Shown one piece after another: positions 1 to 54,589 of a stretch of 54,589 bases of DNA; the stretch's first letter is position 1; each line of letters starts with the position of its first letter. The stretch is from the IMG/VR virus record IMGVR_UViG_3300022752_000087, positions 1 through 54,589 of that record; one strand, 5' to 3'. Source of the stretch: a virus. Both the position numbers and the translations under genes were made by a program. The notes under the pieces were generated by a model. It worked only from the letters and a program-made list of their open reading frames with translations, did no database searches and was not told the DNA's origin.

Positions 1-9
1 GTCGCCGTG

Positions 10-237
10 TCAGTAGCCGTCGCCGTAGCCGTAGCCGTAGCCGTAGCCGTTGCCGTTGCCGTTGCCGTAGCCGTTGCCGTAGCCGTAGCCGTAGCCGTTG
101 CCGTTGCCGTTGCCGTAGCCGTTGCCGTAGCCGTAGCCGTAGCCGTAGCCGTAGCCGTAGCCGTAGCCGTAGCCGTAGCCGTAGCGACCGCAGATCACAG
201 CGGCGCTGACCAGTCGCAGAGACCAGAGCGTGGTCAC
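10..237 (-). CDS. Tyr/Asn/Asp-Gly dipeptide-repeat protein, copy A
   Basis: This encodes about 75 residues. An 18-residue head (MTTLWSLRLVSAAVICGR) is followed by about 28 dipeptides of the form [Y/N/D]-G, ending in G-D-G-Y and a TGA stop. I chose the GTG at 237 because it forms a GTGA overlap with the stop of the upstream gene, has AAGG about 8 bases upstream, and gives a head the same length as copy B (1274-1510). An in-frame GTG at 243 is the alternative. The head is hydrophobic, with an Arg at position 8, and could be a weak signal or membrane segment; this is inference. The codons are monotonous: always XAC then GGC. I recognise no family and no function. Because the window starts 9 bases beyond the stop, the gene's far end may be affected by how the assembly was cut. 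Confidence 0.6.
   Translation of the reverse strand: MTTLWSLRLVSAAVICGRYGYGYGYGYGYGYGYGYGYGNGYGNGNGNGYGYGYGNGYGNGNGNGYGYGYGYGDGY
13..183. repeat. Degenerate hexanucleotide tandem repeat GTNGCC, copy A
   Basis: There are about 28 uninterrupted hexamers GT[A/T/C]GCC on the plus strand (XACGGC on the minus strand). Five positions are invariant and only the third varies among A, T and C; G is never seen. A higher-order pattern of units (runs of GTT, then GTA, GTT, GTA) occurs twice, suggesting block duplication. The array forms the repeat region of the minus-strand gene at 10-237. Confidence 0.95.
184..231. repeat. 48-bp direct repeat, left copy
   Basis: This block is identical, base for base, to 1457-1504. 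It encodes the shared head of the two repeat proteins on the minus strand and ends exactly where the hexamer arrays begin. Sequence on the other side is unrelated in the two copies. Confidence 0.95.
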
Positions 238-485
238 GGCCACGCCTTGCAGGGGATAGCGTAGATGAACGCTGCCTTATTGAGGATCACGTCGGAAGCG
301 GCGTCGAGGGCCGTGTTCTTTGTCGGGCCAGCTACAAGCTGGGCGAGTCCGTTCTCGGTGCCCCACTGCCGGATGATCCGTGCTCCGGACATGTGGATAT
401 ACTCGCCGTTGTCCTCCACTTTGGGGGCGTACCAGACGAAGCCGTTGGTACCGACGATGATGCAGGCTGTGTCGGGCAGTCCCAT
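234..485 (-). CDS. Small conserved phage protein with an IRQWGT motif
   Basis: This protein has 83 residues. It carries a central 'ARIIRQWGTENGLAQL' segment followed by 'GPTKNTALDAA', a pattern I associate with short phage and bacterial proteins of unknown function (typical form IRRWGT..GL...GPT..T.LDP). It sits in a translationally coupled series: its start follows the 485-667 gene directly, and its TGA overlaps the GTG start of the repeat protein. No catalytic motif, signal peptide or membrane segment is visible. Membership of that family is from memory and moderately sure; the role is unknown. Confidence 0.75.
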   Translation of the reverse strand: MGLPDTACIIVGTNGFVWYAPKVEDNGEYIHMSGARIIRQWGTENGLAQLVAGPTKNTALDAASDVILNKAAFIYAIPCKAWP

Positions 486-667
486 TAGATGTTCCCTTCG
501 TAGAGCTTGTGATCCGGGCCGAGAGTGACGACGGCGTTGCCACCGATCCTGTCCCTCGACCGCTTGGCCTCGGTCTTGTTGTTGAAGTAGACCACATCAC
601 CGAACTGATCCTTGATCAGCGGTCCCTTGCGGTATCGACGCAGTGCAAACAGGCGGGTATTTTCCAT
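485..667 (-). CDS. Small basic hypothetical protein
   Basis: This encodes 60 residues when started at the ATG that overlaps the upstream stop (TGATG); AGGAG lies about 8 bases before it. It is rich in Lys/Arg with a short beta-like segment near 'VVYFNNKTEAKRSRD'. No family is recognised. Tight coupling on both sides places it in the leftward early operon. Confidence 0.6.
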   Translation of the reverse strand: MENTRLFALRRYRKGPLIKDQFGDVVYFNNKTEAKRSRDRIGGNAVVTLGPDHKLYEGNI

Positions 668-1272
668 CACACGTTCTCCTCTTCGTCTTCATCTTCGTCG
701 ATCTCGAAAAGCCCATTGCTTTCAATGGCTTCCCATACTGCTTCGTCACTCGTCAGGTAGTTGTATTCCTCCTCCAGTCGTTGGTAGAGATCACGGCAGT
801 GATCCCTGATGATGGTTTGTGCGGTGCCTGCCAGCGTCTCGTACTCGGCGTCGAGAAGCTTATCCCAGCAGTCAGCGATGGCACTGCGCAGGTCGTCTCG
901 TGGTAGGACATGGGTAAACATGTCAGTGAACGTCAGGTCCACACTCACGGTGTTCTCGTGGACGTAGTGGTAGCTAGTCCGCTCGATCTTGAGGGTGAAG
1001 TCGCCGTTCATCTCAAGCAGTTTCGCCACCCACGGATATGTCTCGTTAAGTCCGTGGGCCTTGAGGAACAGGGTGTTGTCGTTGATGTAGCCGGTGAACG
1101 ACGCGCCGTCGCCTTGTGACCAAAAGCCAGAGAAGCGCATGTCCCGCACTTCGAGCCCCTTGGCTTTCATATCCTCACGGAAATCGCTGTAGGTGCAGTC
1201 CCACCAATCGATGTGTTCGACGTTGATATCACGGTACTTTTCAATGAGTTGAGCTTTGCGTTCGTCGTTCAT
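667..1272 (-). CDS. Hypothetical early phage protein with acidic tail
   Basis: This protein has 201 residues. The segment 'RFSGFWSQGDGASFTGYI' is highly reminiscent of a recurring hypothetical protein in tailed phages, but I know no function for it. The last dozen residues are almost entirely Asp/Glu, as in DNA-mimic or protein-partner tails; that reading is speculative. Its ribosome binding site GGAGGG is formed by the last codons of the upstream repeat gene (1274-1510), and its ATG lies 1 base past that gene's TGA, so translation of the two is probably coupled. Confidence 0.75.
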   Translation of the reverse strand: MNDERKAQLIEKYRDINVEHIDWWDCTYSDFREDMKAKGLEVRDMRFSGFWSQGDGASFTGYINDNTLFLKAHGLNETYPWVAKLLEMNGDFTLKIERTSYHYVHENTVSVDLTFTDMFTHVLPRDDLRSAIADCWDKLLDAEYETLAGTAQTIIRDHCRDLYQRLEEEYNYLTSDEAVWEAIESNGLFEIDEDEDEEENV

Positions 1273-1273
1273 A

Positions 1274-1510
1274 TCACCCTCCGCCGTCGCCGTCGCCGTT
1301 GCCGTCGCCGTAGCCGTTGCCGTAGCCGTAGCCGTTGCCGTTGCCGTAGCCGTAGCCGTAGCCGTAGCCGTAGCCGTCGCCGTCGCCGTAGCCGTAGCCG
1401 TCGCCGTAGCCGTAGCCGTCGCCGTCGCCGTAGCCGTCGCCGTAGCCGTAGCCGTAGCGACCGCAGATCACAGCGGCGCTGACCAGTCGCAGAGACCAGA
1501 GCGTAACCAT
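1274..1510 (-). CDS. Tyr/Asn/Asp-Gly dipeptide-repeat protein, copy B
   Basis: This protein has 78 residues: the head MVTLWSLRLVSAAVICGR, then about 29 [Y/D/N]-G dipeptides, ending D-G-G-G. Its start is the best supported of the repeat genes: GGAGG lies 5 bases before the ATG, and the ATG overlaps the stop region of the gene at 1512-1916. Compared with copy A the head differs at residue 2 only, and 48 bases upstream of the repeats are identical. Copy B uses Asp units in its second half and Asn units mainly near its C-terminus, a different order from copy A. The gene's last codons also build the ribosome binding site of the next gene. Function is unknown; the composition resembles low-complexity adhesive or phase-separating proteins, which is inference only. 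Confidence 0.75.
   Translation of the reverse strand: MVTLWSLRLVSAAVICGRYGYGYGDGYGDGDGYGYGDGYGYGDGDGYGYGYGYGYGNGNGYGYGNGYGDGNGDGDGGG
1283..1456. repeat. Degenerate hexanucleotide tandem repeat GTNGCC, copy B
   Basis: There are about 29 hexamers with the same rule as copy A: only the third base varies (A, T or C) and the other five bases never change. The order of unit types differs from copy A. Confidence 0.95.
1457..1504. repeat. 48-bp direct repeat, right copy
   Basis: Identical to 184-231. Together with the hexamer arrays this makes two direct repeats of about 220 bp flanking the three genes between 237 and 1272, so homologous recombination could delete or duplicate that segment. Confidence 0.95.
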
Positions 1511-1511
1511 A

Positions 1512-1916
1512 TCAACCTCCAATGCGGATCGCAGTTGCCACAGGGATGAGTTCATCCGGTAGGAGCTTCAGCTTGGCTGCCATGACCATGTGTTCAGGAT
1601 ATGGGCCGTGGTCTACGAGGAGTCTCATACCGGCGCAGTCCAACGGCACGGCAGGGCCGGGGTTCACATAACCCCTATGCCGGTTGGTAGTCCGGGTGGA
1701 CTTCTCGGTGTTGGCGAACCAGACACCCTTCCAGTTGGCGAAGAGCGGCCAGTGCTTGCCGTAGCTATACACCACATAGAGATCACCGACGTACTCACCC
1801 CACAGAGTAGACCCCTTGGGATGCCGGTGATTGGAGCCATTGTTGTGGAACGGGGTTAGGGATTGGACATACTGGCGAGCGTTCCAGCCAGAGGTACGTA
1901 CAGACTTCTCGGACAT
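1512..1916 (-). CDS. Hypothetical early phage protein
   Basis: This encodes 134 residues from the ATG at 1916, chosen because GGAGG lies 6 bases upstream; an ATG at 1928 lacks a comparable site. It is rich in aromatic residues (Trp, Tyr) in the middle ('DLYVVYSYGKHWPLFANWKG'). No conserved domain is recognised. It is followed at once by repeat protein copy B, whose ribosome binding site overlaps its last codons. Confidence 0.7.
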   Translation of the reverse strand: MSEKSVRTSGWNARQYVQSLTPFHNNGSNHRHPKGSTLWGEYVGDLYVVYSYGKHWPLFANWKGVWFANTEKSTRTTNRHRGYVNPGPAVPLDCAGMRLLVDHGPYPEHMVMAAKLKLLPDELIPVATAIRIGG

Positions 1917-2009
1917 TGCTGCCTCCATCGATGTTGGGTTGGGTTTGCCTGTCTCATCAGTGGTGGGCGGCGATCCACCAGACGGGATGTGAAGTCCCGT
2001 TTCGACTTG

Positions 2010-2273
2010 TTACGAGTGAAAACCAAAGTGGTCATCGTGCCAGACGGCACCGATCTGATAGCAGACGCCGCCATCAGCCTCGTCCTTGTAGGTGGCAATC
2101 AGTTCGGGGTTTCCGCAGTAGGTACCACCAGTGATCCGGACATAGCTGTAAGTCATGTTCCATGAGGTGAGGTAACCCAGCGCCTCATAGAAGCGCTGGG
2201 AACCAGTGATCTCACGGATTTGGTGGGTTGTGACGGCATCGAGAAACATGTCGATAGTGCGCTGTTCAGCCAT
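2010..2273 (-). CDS. Hypothetical early phage protein
   Basis: This encodes 87 residues from the ATG at 2273, which overlaps the TAA of the upstream gene (TAATG). No recognised domain; mixed alpha/beta composition. A gap of 93 bases separates its stop from the next gene. An overlapping ORF in another frame is a shadow. Confidence 0.65.
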   Translation of the reverse strand: MAEQRTIDMFLDAVTTHQIREITGSQRFYEALGYLTSWNMTYSYVRITGGTYCGNPELIATYKDEADGGVCYQIGAVWHDDHFGFHS

Positions 2274-2449
2274 TAGTCGATCCACTTCGTTTTGGTTTGG
2301 TTGAGGACACCGACAAGCCGTGTGCCACCGGTATCAGGGCCGATTTGGATACGGACAGCATCCAGAACATTGCGAGTTGTCAGGGGGATAGAGACCCGCT
2401 TAGCGGGTCCCTTCTCAAACACTGCGTAGACACTGGTGAGCTTGGCCAT
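2273..2449 (-). CDS. Small hypothetical protein
   Basis: This encodes 58 residues starting MAKLTSVYAVFEKGP. The start at 2449 is preceded by GGAGTAACGACA, a leader seen before several other early genes of this phage. Basic, no membrane segment, function unknown. Confidence 0.65.
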   Translation of the reverse strand: MAKLTSVYAVFEKGPAKRVSIPLTTRNVLDAVRIQIGPDTGGTRLVGVLNQTKTKWID

Positions 2450-2454
2450 TGTCG

Positions 2455-2670
2455 TTACTCCGTGAAGCCATAAGTGACGCCCCAAGCGTCAAGTTCGTCG
2501 AAGAGGTACCAGACAGGGTGGTCGTAGTACCAAGAGTTACCAAAGTACCGCAGAGCCTTCTCATGGAGCAGCACCTCGACAGGCTGGCTGTCCTGCCAAG
2601 TGATGGAGGTAACGAAGTCAGCGACAGGCTCCATGAGAGCGGCGAAAGAGTGAAGTGTAAGGTTGCTCAC
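2455..2670 (-). CDS. Small hypothetical protein
   Basis: This encodes 71 residues and overlaps the preceding gene by 4 bases (ATGA). It is rich in aromatic residues and acidic towards the C-terminus. No family recognised. Confidence 0.65.
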   Translation of the reverse strand: MSNLTLHSFAALMEPVADFVTSITWQDSQPVEVLLHEKALRYFGNSWYYDHPVWYLFDELDAWGVTYGFTE

Positions 2671-2942
2671 AGGCTCACCTCCACATTGAGGTTGTTATTA
2701 TACATGATATCGATGACGGTGTAGCCATGAGCCTTGAGAGTGTTGGCGTCCAAAGTAGACACAAAGCAGCCATCGAAGGGGCTTGTGGAGTCCACCACGA
2801 TGAACTCATGACCCACAGCGTAGTCATAGACAGCGTCGGAAGCTGACAGATAGTGACGGCGGCGAGGCACCACAGAGAGAGCCTTGGAGGGTACATACGT
2901 ACCCTTGAGATCAGCGAACGAGGTAAAAGTGGTCCGAGTCAT
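2667..2942 (-). CDS. First gene of the leftward early operon, hypothetical
   Basis: This encodes 91 residues from the ATG at 2942 (MTRTTFTSF). Three ATGs are clustered (2951, 2948, 2942); AAGGG lies directly before the first, so only the third has normal spacing. It is the first gene downstream of the minus-strand promoter in the control region and so is probably among the first phage proteins made. No domain is recognised. Confidence 0.65.
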   Translation of the reverse strand: MTRTTFTSFADLKGTYVPSKALSVVPRRRHYLSASDAVYDYAVGHEFIVVDSTSPFDGCFVSTLDANTLKAHGYTVIDIMYNNNLNVEVSL

Positions 2943-3364
2943 ACTCATCATCCCTTGTAAAGTTAAGTTATCTGGACATGGATTGCCCCGACCCCATGGT
3001 TTTGCCACGGGGCGGGATCGGCGTCAAGCGGCTCGTTGCTATTCAAACTTGACATGGAAATGTGTAAGGTTCGGAGTGAATAATCTAAAAAGATGGATTT
3101 TTAATCTAGAAAAGATATAACTTTACGCTCGGTAAGTGTTTGAAAAATAAGGAATGATATAAAAAATATATGTTTTTGGAGATAATGTCGCGTGAAAGGA
3201 GGTTGGGGAGGGTGTTAGGAAGTTTACACTGTATAGTTTCCGGGAAGGGGGTAACTCACTCTGATCGTTAATGACCCACGATTCTCTATATATTTTATAT
3301 TTTTTAGATTATTATAAACTATACCATACATACCAACCCCTTGGTTTCCCTACGTTTTTTCCTA

Positions 3365-3393
3365 ATTATACTGTCAAGTATGTAAAGTGTAAA
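3365..3393 (-). promoter_or_regulatory. Sigma70-like promoter of the leftward early operon
   Basis: On the minus strand TTTACA (3393-3388) is followed by a 17-base spacer and a perfect TATAAT (3370-3365). The -35 element coincides with the complement of a GTGTAAAG octamer. Transcription would start near 3358 with a leader of about 415 bases before the first gene. Confidence 0.6.
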
Positions 3394-3476
3394 GTTTGTA
3401 TAGTAATAACTAAACTAGCTTTTTTCGTCGAAAAAATTGTATTATTTGTTTAGAATCAGCGACTTAGCGATCTCGC

Positions 3477-3521
3477 TCGATATGGCAAAATCTGAACGCC
3501 CTTCGATATGACGTAATCTGA
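3477..3521. repeat. Imperfect direct repeat pair (possible operators or iterons)
   Basis: TCGATATGGCAAAATCTGA (3477-3495) and TCGATATGACGTAATCTGA (3503-3521) match at 16 of 19 positions with a 26-base period, between the two divergent promoters. The spacing and position suggest protein binding sites. Confidence 0.55.
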
Positions 3522-3574
3522 CACGTATATGGAAGATGTGTAAAGTATTGAAACTATACAAGCAAAATCGAAAC

Positions 3575-3602
3575 TTGACACGGGGCCGGAAATCGGCATA
3601 AT
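3575..3602 (+). promoter_or_regulatory. Sigma70-like promoter for the gene at 3650
   Basis: TTGACA (3575-3580), a 16-base spacer and CATAAT (3597-3602) form a near-consensus promoter about 40 bases upstream of the start codon at 3650. Confidence 0.7.
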
Positions 3603-3649
3603 GGAGGGGCCGGAAGCAAGGTGCCGACGGTTTTACTGGAGTAAGTCAA

Positions 3650-4003
3650 ATGGCTATCTTTGAAGGTTATGTGTCGCTTTTTGAGCGTAACGGTGCTGTG
3701 GAGATTCGCCGTGTTTCTAGCGGCGGCTATGCCGCCAGTGAGGTTTCCGATCTTATCACCGATTTGTTGGAATTGAAAAAACCGGTTTCCAAGTGGAGCC
3801 TCTGGGTCGATGGCATTGATGTGAAGGCAAGTGAGACCTATTCACCTGCTACTATGGCCAAGCTAGTCAAGGCCAACACTGTGGAATTGATTGCAGTGCG
3901 ACGGCGAGGGAGAAACGGCGGATTTATGGCTCCTGTTCTTAAGATTACCGCACCTAATGCGGCACCTAAGGCCGCACCGAACAAGGCCCGCCTCGGCCGA
4001 TAA
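3650..4003 (+). CDS. Monocistronic hypothetical protein with own promoter and terminator
   Basis: This protein has 117 residues. The start has GGAG nine bases upstream. The N-terminal 90 residues look like a compact alpha/beta fold; the C-terminus is a Lys/Arg/Pro/Ala-rich tail ('NAAPKAAPNKARLGR') that could contact nucleic acid. It is bracketed by a strong promoter and a strong intrinsic terminator, so it forms a single-gene transcription unit at the head of the rightward arm, typical of early host-takeover or moron-like genes. I recognise no family. Confidence 0.75.
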   Translation: MAIFEGYVSLFERNGAVEIRRVSSGGYAASEVSDLITDLLELKKPVSKWSLWVDGIDVKASETYSPATMAKLVKANTVELIAVRRRGRNGGFMAPVLKITAPNAAPKAAPNKARLGR

Positions 4004-50254: not shown

Positions 50255-50462
50255 TGTCGTGGTCCTTTAGGTTCTGGATTGTTTCGAGTAGACTCTTGGT
50301 GAACTCAGCGAGGAACACGTCCTCGCCAAGCCCGGATTGGATGCAGGCATCCGCAGTCAGATACGTCAGTGCGGTCAGCACCGTACTCAGGTCGTAGCCA
50401 GAGCAGGCATGACCCATCTCCCCGGTCAGGTCTTCGATCCGGTCTTCGATCTCATCACTCAT
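50232..50462 (-). CDS. Small hypothetical protein
   Basis: This protein has 76 residues, acidic and helical, ending in His residues. It overlaps the neighbouring genes by 23 and 4 bases. The overlap means the next gene's ribosome binding site lies within it. No family recognised. Confidence 0.6.
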   Translation of the reverse strand: MSDEIEDRIEDLTGEMGHACSGYDLSTVLTALTYLTADACIQSGLGEDVFLAEFTKSLLETIQNLKDHDNGNCTHH

Positions 50463-51589
50463 GCCATCATCACCACTTCTCCAAAGGGGGCGCTGTCAGC
50501 GCCGTTGGAAACCCACAGCACCGGGTAGTCCGGTGCGTCACCGAAATCGTGGCAGTACAGGTCAGTCAGAAACACGCAGGCAACCGGGTCGATGTCATGC
50601 TCTTCAGCGTAGCGGAACACCGGGCTGAATGCCGTACCGCCACCACCATGTGGGCGGATATCGAGATCGTCCTCCGCAGCGTAGCTCTCGTAGTGGGAGA
50701 CAGTGCTGTCGAAGTAGACCACATGGATACGTGCCGGTAGGCAGTCGTCCTTGACCGTCCTGATCTCGGCAGCGAACTGGTTCAGGGTGTGCTGGTCGAT
50801 GGAGCCAGAGCAGTCCACTGCGAAGAGCAGTTCACCCATCCGCTCACCTGTCACGCTGGGCAGGTAGAGACCCTGTGCTGCGAAGATACGGCTGGGCCGA
50901 GCGTAGGTACGCTGGTCAGTACGAGCCTTCTCGATGAACCGTTGCAGCACCTCACGCCAATCGACCTTAGGTTGCAGCACCTCATCGACAAGTCTCTGCA
51001 TGTTGGCAGACAGTTTGCCCATCATCTTGGCTGCCTGCGCAGCCTGAGCCACCTTGATTTTCATCTCGGCCTGAGCCTGAGCCTGCTCTGCTGCGTTGCC
51101 CTCAGCATCCTCGCAGTCATCGAAGGGACCGTTGCCATCGGCGTAGCCGCCACTGCCGTCGTCACCGGGCTGATCTTCGAGGATGCTGAAGATGCCGTCA
51201 CTGGTGCCATTGCCAGCCTGATAAATGCTGGTGCTTTGCAGCCCACCCTCGGGCATCTTGCCGATACCTTCCTGCACCAGAAGCTCGTTGATCACGTAGT
51301 CGCAGGCACGGTTCCACTTGCGGGGGTTGCGCTCACCACGGCGGTAGTTGTGTTCCATCATGGGGTGGAACACCTCGTGAGCAACGAGGAACTTGAGTTC
51401 CTCATCAGTCAGCGGGTCGATGAATGCCGGGTTGAACACCACACGCTTGCCGTTGGTCGCCGCAGTGGGAACCGAGTCAGACAACTCGAACGGCATGTTG
51501 AGCGTGATGGTGCCGATGAACGGCGACTCAAGGATCAGGCTGGTCTTGGCCTTGGACAGGCGGCGCATCAGCTTGTTGGTGTCAGTCAT
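50459..51589 (-). CDS. VWA-like protein with HExxH motif (CobT/DUF2201-like)
   Basis: This encodes 376 residues from the ATG at 51589 (AAAGGAGAACGACA upstream). The N-terminal part has a zincin motif H71-E-V-F-H75 in 'LKFLVAHEVFHPMMEH' and the following 'NRACDYVINELL'. The C-terminal von Willebrand A-like domain shows a MIDAS D259-C-S261-G-S263 and 'GGGGTAFSPVF'. A low-complexity acidic/Gln stretch lies between. Such proteins pair with MoxR-type AAA ATPases; the ATPase and a DUF3150-like protein are encoded at 53378 and 52282. Target unknown. Confidence 0.85.
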   Translation of the reverse strand: MTDTNKLMRRLSKAKTSLILESPFIGTITLNMPFELSDSVPTAATNGKRVVFNPAFIDPLTDEELKFLVAHEVFHPMMEHNYRRGERNPRKWNRACDYVINELLVQEGIGKMPEGGLQSTSIYQAGNGTSDGIFSILEDQPGDDGSGGYADGNGPFDDCEDAEGNAAEQAQAQAEMKIKVAQAAQAAKMMGKLSANMQRLVDEVLQPKVDWREVLQRFIEKARTDQRTYARPSRIFAAQGLYLPSVTGERMGELLFAVDCSGSIDQHTLNQFAAEIRTVKDDCLPARIHVVYFDSTVSHYESYAAEDDLDIRPHGGGGTAFSPVFRYAEEHDIDPVACVFLTDLYCHDFGDAPDYPVLWVSNGADSAPFGEVVMMA

Positions 51590-51872
51590 TGTCGTTCTCC
51601 TTTGCTGCGAGTGCCGCAGCGGCTGCATCGAACGCTTTGAAGTAATCGGTGGATTCGAGAGCACAACGCTCGAAGTATATATCATTGACTACTGTTCGGA
51701 TCGCGTCCCTGACGTGCGGTTTGGTGCTAGGGTCTATCCCCCACATCCAAAGTTCTGTGAGTACGATCTCATCTAGACCATCGACATCCAACACAAATTT
51801 GTAGACCGGAGTGTCAGATATAAACGTGTAGACCGGGTCTCCGTCCTCATTGTCCCTAATTTGCAAACGCAT
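51582..51872 (-). CDS. Hypothetical early protein
   Basis: This encodes 96 residues from the ATG at 51872, preceded by GGGAGG with good spacing; longer starts lack a site. Acidic with a helical C-terminal half, ending 'KENDND'. Its end overlaps the start of the VWA gene by 8 bases. No family recognised. Confidence 0.6.
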   Translation of the reverse strand: MRLQIRDNEDGDPVYTFISDTPVYKFVLDVDGLDEIVLTELWMWGIDPSTKPHVRDAIRTVVNDIYFERCALESTDYFKAFDAAAAALAAKENDND

Positions 51873-53157: not shown

Positions 53158-53391
53158 TTATTGTTTTCCCATCAGTCTACGCTGTGTCTTGAACACGAGG
53201 TAGTCGGTGGGGTACTGCATCGCCAGTTCATCAAGCCGGGCAAGAGCAGCGCGCCGTGCTGCTTTGCTTGCGTCTATCTGACTGCGTCGGTGCATCAGTT
53301 CTATCCGTTTGTGAGGCTGGCGCTCTATCAGAAACGCCAGCCACGCCTTGGCCTCACTGATTTCCAGTGGACCGACCTCAGAAAAGTACAT
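53158..53391 (-). CDS. Small basic hypothetical protein
   Basis: This protein has 77 residues with an Arg/Lys/Ala-rich helix ('DASKAARRAALARLDELAMQ'). It overlaps the end of the AAA gene by 14 bases. The nearest Shine-Dalgarno-like sequence is rather far from the ATG. No family recognised. Confidence 0.55.
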   Translation of the reverse strand: MYFSEVGPLEISEAKAWLAFLIERQPHKRIELMHRRSQIDASKAARRAALARLDELAMQYPTDYLVFKTQRRLMGKQ

Positions 53392-54373
53392 CTTGGTGCT
53401 CGATGCTCCACTTCGTGAACGCTTGCGTGTTGCACAGGTCAGGGTTCTTGCGCACCGCCGAGGAGATGGTCAGAACGCTGAACTCGGGCGGCATCCGCTC
53501 ACTGTAGGTGCAGACACGCTCAAAGTTACCGTCAGTAGCACGGTGAGAGAGCGCACCAGACAGAGCGTAGAGCGTAGCCGGATCGGTCGGCACGTCAGCA
53601 GTGTTGGGGTTCATCAGGATGGCGTCAGGGTTGGGCAGCTTGCGGAAAATCCGCATGAAACCAACGAACTCTGCCGCTGCACCCTCACCGATGGCACCCT
53701 TGAAGCACTCGTACTCAGCTTCGGCAGGCACCACACCGAGGATGTCAGAGATACCCTCAACCCACGAACGGGGCGTCGGGTTGCTGACACGCTGCGGATC
53801 GAAGTCATGCAGCAGACCGGGCCGGAACCGCAGGAAGCTGACAACCTCGGGCTTCACGTTGTGGTCGATCATCCACTTGGTGCTGTCGTTGAGGTCGGTC
53901 TCGAACTCCAAGGTAGTCTCGCGGTTGGCGAGATGGCTCAGAGTGCGGACAGCACCGGCCCTGTCAGCCTGACGATTGCCAGTGGAGACAATCTGCCAGC
54001 CATCAGCCAGAGGTACGCCGTGCAGGTCACGAGCCTGACAGATGTGAGCGATAGCCTTCTGGTGGTCGGGGCTGGCTTGAGTGCGGTCATCGAACAGCAG
54101 GATGCCGCCACGTTCAGTACCCGGCTTGCCCTTGTAGGGAAACCAGTCAGGCATCTTGTAGCCGAAGGCCTTGCCCTGTGCCAGCATGTCAGGGGCACCG
54201 AAGTCCTCGACCGGAGTGAGCGCAGGATTGCGCAGGATCACAGGAACACCAAGCTCTTCGGCCACCTCGTTGACGATGGTGGTCTTGCCGCCGCCCGGAG
54301 GGCCGACGATGATCACGGTACGCTGGATGGGGAAGAGAGCCTTGAGCGTTCCCTTGAGAAGTTCTGCACGCAT
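53378..54373 (-). CDS. MoxR/CobS-like AAA ATPase
   Basis: This protein has 331 residues with AAGGAAAC before the ATG. Walker A G24-P-P-G-G-G-K30-T31; Walker B 'GGILLFDDRTQAS' with D95-D96 where D-E is usual; sensor 'QIVSTGNRQAD'. The layout fits MoxR/CobS-type ATPases, which work with VWA-domain partners to remodel proteins or insert metal. N4-like phages also encode a MoxR/VWA pair. The Asp in place of the Walker B Glu may slow hydrolysis; this is inference. Confidence 0.85.
   Translation of the reverse strand: MRAELLKGTLKALFPIQRTVIIVGPPGGGKTTIVNEVAEELGVPVILRNPALTPVEDFGAPDMLAQGKAFGYKMPDWFPYKGKPGTERGGILLFDDRTQASPDHQKAIAHICQARDLHGVPLADGWQIVSTGNRQADRAGAVRTLSHLANRETTLEFETDLNDSTKWMIDHNVKPEVVSFLRFRPGLLHDFDPQRVSNPTPRSWVEGISDILGVVPAEAEYECFKGAIGEGAAAEFVGFMRIFRKLPNPDAILMNPNTADVPTDPATLYALSGALSHRATDGNFERVCTYSERMPPEFSVLTISSAVRKNPDLCNTQAFTKWSIEHQDVLF

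Positions 54374-54428: not shown

Positions 54429-54589
<161 letters not shown>

Follow-up and report, generated by a model that had tools for sequence, protein, structure and literature searches.

A two-gene phage module encoding a small, predicted Sm-like protein and a dipeptide polymer of variable unit order

Introduction

The FUS-like and prion-like low-complexity domains, which are of the sticker-and-spacer type, are eukaryotic. Variable bacterial genes with tandem repeats (VNTR-type genes) change the number and the order of their repeats by recombination or slippage. A survey of low-complexity regions in prokaryotes and phages found aromatic residues and Asn to be strongly under-represented in them (PMC6821194).

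A first-pass annotation of the viral sequence analyzed here pointed to genes built from hexamer units, a kind of phage family of which no description was known to its author. No description was found in the open-access literature either, including the work on low-complexity or Sm-like phage proteins. The module to which these genes belong seems to be undescribed because its second gene is of low complexity and, hence, gets filtered, misnamed, or left unannotated. Missing from the first-pass annotation were a coupled partner gene and the very wide distribution of the pair, which occurs in many uncultured phages as well as in cultured ones that infect several proteobacteria and a green sulfur bacterium. 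For the question of what selection keeps in a simple repetitive polymer, its arrays are natural experiments.

Arrays and genes in the window

The window, i.e., the whole 54,589-nt stretch that was analyzed (positions 1 to 54,589 of the IMG/VR virus record IMGVR_UViG_3300022752_000087), carries 82 complete XACGGC units on its minus strand, where X is T in 46 units, A in 18, G in 18, and C in none, and the remaining five bases are identical in all 82, which confirms the earlier observation. With the window genome's own codon usage (NAC, 66%; GGC, 33%; the commonest Gly codon is GGT), the uniformity of the silent pairs in these units corresponds to a log10 P of approximately -54. The units form array 1 (positions 16..183; 28 units, T19 A8 G1), array 2 (positions 1283..1456; 29 units, T16 G9 A4), and array 3 (positions 54435..54584; 25 units, T11 G8 A6), all on the minus strand, with array 3 running past the contig end. 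The interval 10-1510, to which all three had been assigned, contains arrays 1 and 2, but array 3 sits at the opposite end of the contig.

Gene 1 (positions 10..237, minus strand) starts with GTG at 237-235, which overlaps the stop codon of the upstream partner gene as GTGA, and encodes the head VTTLWSLRLVSAAVICGR followed by 28 X-Gly units. The 3' end of the gene is located at the edge of the contig, and its stop codon, 9 nt off the contig end, may be an assembly artifact. Gene 2 (positions 1274..1510, minus strand) extends from an ATG at 1510 to a stop codon at 1274-1276, contains 29 units, begins one base past the upstream stop, and is preceded by the Shine-Dalgarno sequence GGAGG at positions 1516..1520 of the same strand, as read from the sequence. 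Gene 3 is a fragment (positions 54429..54589, minus strand) of 25 units followed by Tyr and a stop, open at the contig end. Of the genes to which proper starts and ribosome-binding sites had been ascribed, gene 2 has both, gene 1 has the overlapping GTG, and gene 3 has its start outside the window. Genes 1 and 2 share an identical first 66 bp, covering the head and the first three units, after which their arrays diverge. Gene 2 is an additional copy with no adjoining partner gene, and it is missing at the corresponding site of one relative (L179), where the same flanks are joined (TGGAGGTTGATATG, then the next gene).

The partner gene (positions 234..485, minus strand) codes for an 83-aa member of the DUF6948 superfamily (IRRWGT type) with a predicted Sm/LSm-like barrel and is translationally coupled to gene 1. 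It is flanked by a small open reading frame (ORF) (positions 485..670, minus strand) and, between the two array loci, by a gene of unknown function (phrog_5162; positions 667..1272, minus strand). An ATPase gene (phrog_1297; positions 53378..54373, minus strand) lies downstream of the array locus. In one relative lacking the module (L182), the ATPase directly follows the homolog of the 485-670 ORF. In another (L180), the ATPase protein is identical to that of the window and occupies the same place, the gene order is partner, a single array, and ATPase, and the array-to-ATPase spacer matches the spacer that follows array 3. Arrays 1 and 3 therefore very probably belong to a single locus that the assembly broke, each forming one of its ends. 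The earlier count of about 83 units in three arrays is thus confirmed for the units, but the three arrays probably represent two loci, with both contig ends falling inside one array.

Elsewhere in the window, the product of positions 50459-51685 is labeled "HNH endonuclease" in PHROG (phrog_1314) and is assigned by Pfam to the DUF2201 metallopeptidases with a VWA-like domain; together with the ATPase gene at 53378-54373, this gene looks like part of a MoxR/VWA-type set. No Rfam match was found in window positions 1-3700, and a nucleotide search of GenBank phages revealed no close relative of the window.

A conserved pair of genes

The arrays belong to a conserved phage module of two translationally coupled genes, of which they form the second. 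The protein they encode is a polymer of X-Gly pairs, and at X, Tyr (in some cases Phe) is nearly always combined with Asp, Asn, or Ser. Array scans of IMG/VR yielded at least 120 loci per scan, so that all totals are lower bounds, and only identical near-duplicates were removed. An iterated search with the 234-485 ORF placed a partner homolog, among the matches listed, at 163 of 196 array loci. Where a same-strand partner was present, it ended between -60 and 250 bp before the array in 146 of 166 cases, usually at a distance of 0-60 bp. The association also holds from the partner side: when partner genes were collected with the arrays disregarded, 66 of the 79 evaluable ones had a downstream array of at least 5 units, and 60 had at least 10 units. 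In two further cases, the partner is followed by a Phe version (L342) or a degenerate version (L366) of the array, and a related cluster of about ten partner genes comes without one. Among the relatives of the window, the partner and the array are both present in 3 records and both missing in 3, with the qualification that these records may be fragments.

In such arrays, no forward frame is usually closed, and the reading-frame count is therefore informative. Of 146 modules, 141 have a start near the partner stop that opens the X-Gly frame, compared to 15 and 7 for the other two frames; in 124 of the 146, the array gene starts between -15 and +25 nt from the partner stop. The view that these are real translated genes is supported by this evidence, and the frameshifted, untranslated arrays that would have spoken against it were not seen in relatives: L179 and L180 both keep the frame.

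The ends of the polymer are short or domain-sized and differ from phage to phage, with several recurring head and tail types (FxPVG...TVS..RRR, NFEDSQ, MSYxRNPNTADEIRP...GIL, and ACxDGV). Some arrays are joined to larger domains, including DUF7666. Five arrays (L235, L035, L108, L154, and L061) are followed by a common C-terminal domain (..YxIDGVxTxIxSVxGNxAK..), for which no Pfam name was found in the L235 sequence. Pfam TrAA12 matches were rejected as composition matches to the low-complexity tail. A direct search with gene 2 retrieved two other Gly-rich loci, neither of which had the gene 2 head, and tblastn with several heads or domains returned either nothing or unannotated contigs. In GTDB chromosomes, many of the matches are pure single-X microsatellites, and the mixed arrays found there often have phage-like heads.

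In cultured phages, partner matches come from 115 records of Rheinheimera Barba phages, as well as Rhodobacter phage RcapNL, Pectobacterium phages, Dickeya phage Setonix, Vibrio phage IKEMa6-1, Iodobacter phage PhiPLPE, and Chlorobiaceae phage CV-1-33; an X-Gly array follows the partner in every isolate record read. The annotation of these arrays varies. Gene 25 of CV-1-33 (L411, positions 2780-3025) is given in GenBank in the frame MAMAMALAM..., and its X-Gly frame reads GYGDGDGSG. In PhiPLPE (L409, approximately 1170-1410), the array ORF comes straight after gp84 and is unannotated, and in MW202613 (L410, positions 2728-3042), the array gene bears the name "lamprin," that of a lamprey cartilage protein, which is a composition-driven misnaming.

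The partner protein

The window partner scores 18.6 bits (E = 0.0021) against DUF6948 (Pfam PF22253), which is under the cutoff of 27, while the partner variant of L015 scores 81 bits, above that cutoff. Despite being subthreshold itself, the window partner belongs to the same superfamily, to which it was tied by an iterated profile search and profile-profile comparison; its structural model also matches the fold of a DUF6948 phage model (E = 1.6e-8). DUF6948 is a Pfam entry without a function, no open-access paper was found under its name, and PHROGs and NCBIfam gave no useful match for the partner. AlphaFold (AF2) models of the window partner and the DUF6948 core have pLDDT values of 95 and 96.8, respectively, and the PDB fold matches listed by Foldseek for both are almost all Sm/LSm proteins (E values of 4e-3 to 6e-3; TM scores of 0.5-0.65). 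Both branches are thus predicted to resemble Sm/LSm barrels, a likeness that is suggestive only.

Composition and order of the units

Variation was assessed in arrays found by a pattern left free at base 1 and at the silent positions, of which 94 of the 99 listed were mixed. In these 94 arrays (2,317 units), heterozygosity is 0.575 at base 1 and 0.035 and 0.054 at the silent bases. Array codons are 98% uniform; in the genomes that carry them, the values are 57% and 39%. The silent bases are mostly uniform inside an array and differ from phage to phage, and the Gly codon used in 42 of 152 arrays is other than the commonest one of the genome, which led us to reject codon-usage constraint as the cause of the uniformity.

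In the simulations, neutral slippage made base 1 and the silent base of the Gly codon similarly heterozygous, unlike the data, whereas composition selection with multi-unit turnover and raised base-1 mutation could not be told apart in these short and noisy runs. The rarer units, in which X is Ser in 296, Gly in 35, and Cys in 21, indicate that the amino acids are selected, since Ser is far above Gly and Cys. Tyr makes up approximately 42% of X and Asn 18%, and nearly every array combines Tyr with Asp, Asn, or Ser. The fraction of Tyr, Phe, and Trp at X has a mean of 0.43 (standard deviation, 0.13) across 193 arrays, only 4 of which lack all three residues, and none of those four has a partner. 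Asn and Ser seldom occur in one array (among the 193 alphabets, DNY was found 81 times, DSY 46 times, and DNSY 9 times), as if either residue might serve as the uncharged spacer. The order of X is not fully random: it shows weak lag-1 and lag-2 correlation, and repeats are longer than in shuffled sequences in 38 of 126 arrays. The overall pattern points to selection on the composition of the chain and not on its order. The proposal that variation is confined to the amino-acid-changing base and maintained by selection and recombination gains support from these data.

Change of unit order among isolates

In the isolates compared, the flanking DNA changes more slowly than the order and number of units. 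Between the Pectobacterium phages Ymer and Amona, 1,400 bp on the upstream side of the array and 850 bp on the downstream side contain 0 differences; their arrays have both ends in common and a different order of the interior units. Barba1A and 19A differ at 1 of 1,190 and 5 of 900 flanking bases, and an alignment of their arrays is no better than one of shuffled arrays. Such isolates, with nearly or fully identical flanks and a different order, bear out the earlier suggestion that units are reshuffled in nature. Among 13 Barba isolates, nine share one 28-unit array (bar one base change), another two have a single additional unit, and the remaining two have a different, 19A-type array. This distribution argues against random assembly error; most Barba isolates reproduce the same array, and the assembly artifacts that had been considered were not seen.

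Possible functions of the polymer

The explanation that we favor, while giving it less than an even chance, is that the module makes a recombination-shuffled sticker-and-spacer polymer together with its Sm-like partner, by a mechanism that we infer as follows. The polymer would act through its composition, not its order, as a self-associating chain of aromatic stickers and Gly or polar spacers. The Sm-like partner could be a nucleator, a binder of nucleic acids or of a host factor, or a modifier. Unequal exchange within and between arrays would keep the units uniform and reshuffle their order, and selection for a mix of Tyr and polar residues would retain several unit types. The mosaic boundaries at which several arrays sit (see below) also speak for this reading. 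The time of action would probably be during phage genome replication. Where phages are annotated, genes for recombination and replication are found close to the module, and its neighbors include Erf, SSB, RecE, Bet, and an exonuclease; a transcriptome study of Barba18A reports that replication genes form an early cluster, and its text does not include gp17 or gp18 (PMC9305737). The phase separation proposed in the first-pass annotation would fit the composition of the polymer. Of the other suggested roles, cation binding loses weight given module arrays that consist purely of Asn and Tyr units (L012), and no evidence was found for adhesion. A more general proposal, which we put forward more tentatively still, is that phages of many lineages carry a kit of two components for forming condensates: one would be an Sm-like protein and the other a separately encoded FUS-like Tyr-Gly polymer with a freely shuffled sequence and a selected sticker composition.

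An arms race, in which the polymer serves to block or decoy a defense or surface factor of the host and variation in order is selected for escape or matching, is unlikely. It would account for the hypervariable order between otherwise identical isolates and for a module that, like counterdefense genes, is optional and spread over unrelated phages; the partner family was also not found among 299 sampled chromosomes of one phylum. Against this stand the lack of any PADLOC match, the nine of 13 Barba isolates with practically the same array, which leave little variation for escape in a single host, and the fact that the order looks largely unconstrained while the composition is conserved.

A function at the DNA level, with the arrays serving as common homology patches for the exchange of modules between phages and the protein being incidental, appears less probable again. 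Several arrays do sit at mosaic boundaries. Identity between the window and L180 is 82.9% to the left of the array and 97.5% to the right; homology with L179 is confined to the left side; Ymer shares with Taid or Sabo homology upstream of the array only; and Ymer and Pappous have 105 differences upstream and 0 downstream. Owing to these one-sided matches, the arrays coincide with recombination junctions in those cases. The CC unit type is found in AT-rich phages, too. Yet there is no universal DNA motif, because the silent bases differ between phages, and a homology patch would not predict the frame and start coupling to the partner, the recurring heads and tails, the choice of amino acids at X, or the requirement for Tyr.

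Lower in our estimation is a structural or adhesive role, in which the polymer would resemble silk or lamprin and be part of the virion or lie on the cell surface. The Gly-Tyr composition is similar to that of structural polymers, and one GenBank record does say "lamprin," but the genes adjoin recombination and replication genes in annotated phages, and the head encoded in the window has no clear signal peptide, as read from the sequence. Targeted mutagenesis of base 1, e.g., by a retroelement-like or misalignment mutator, is very improbable: a raised base-1 rate likewise reproduces the heterozygosities in simulation, but the excess of Ser over Gly and Cys suggests that amino acids are chosen, C is nearly missing at base 1, and the window record, which is possibly incomplete, has no RVT_1 match. 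Neutral microsatellite expansion, despite the pure single-X hexamer arrays that are common in bacterial chromosomes, can hardly be maintained, as most of those arrays are pure, the context of the module is missing from them, and simulated slippage, contrary to the data, makes the silent Gly position vary to a similar degree as base 1.

Comparison with known systems

The known anti-CRISPR protein AcrIC9 of RcapNL (79 aa, acidic; PMC7391736) was considered as a candidate identity for gp46 (75 aa); the two differ in length and in the directon described, a comparison made by description only. Gly-rich low-complexity regions do exist in phages, but the module arrays reverse the scarcity of aromatic residues and Asn reported for prokaryotic and phage regions (PMC6821194), given the shares of Tyr and Asn at X. 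The partner may resemble the small beta-barrels of the Sm, LSm, and Hfq proteins in its predicted fold and differs from them in sequence: a search of PDB chains returned 0 matches at E <= 1, so there is no sequence match to a solved Sm/LSm protein. The RTX calcium-binding repeats are nonapeptides (GGxGxDxUx), and the units read from the sequence here are strict X-Gly dipeptides, so this class was rejected. A diversity-generating retroelement is disfavored as well, given that no RVT_1 was found in the window record (possibly incomplete) and that adenine-templated change to any base is contradicted by the count of C at base 1 (25 of 2,317 units). Compared to VNTR-type genes, the module arrays vary almost solely at amino-acid-changing bases and have uniform silent bases. 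With the FUS-like and prion-like domains, the phage polymer shares recurrent Tyr (or Phe), Gly and polar spacers, and a conserved composition with varying order; its aromatic residues recur between Gly and polar spacers as in sticker-and-spacer chains, with the D/N/S/Y alphabets dominating. It differs from those domains in being a strict dipeptide repeat, in being hypervariable, and in having as its partner a small folded protein encoded by another gene.
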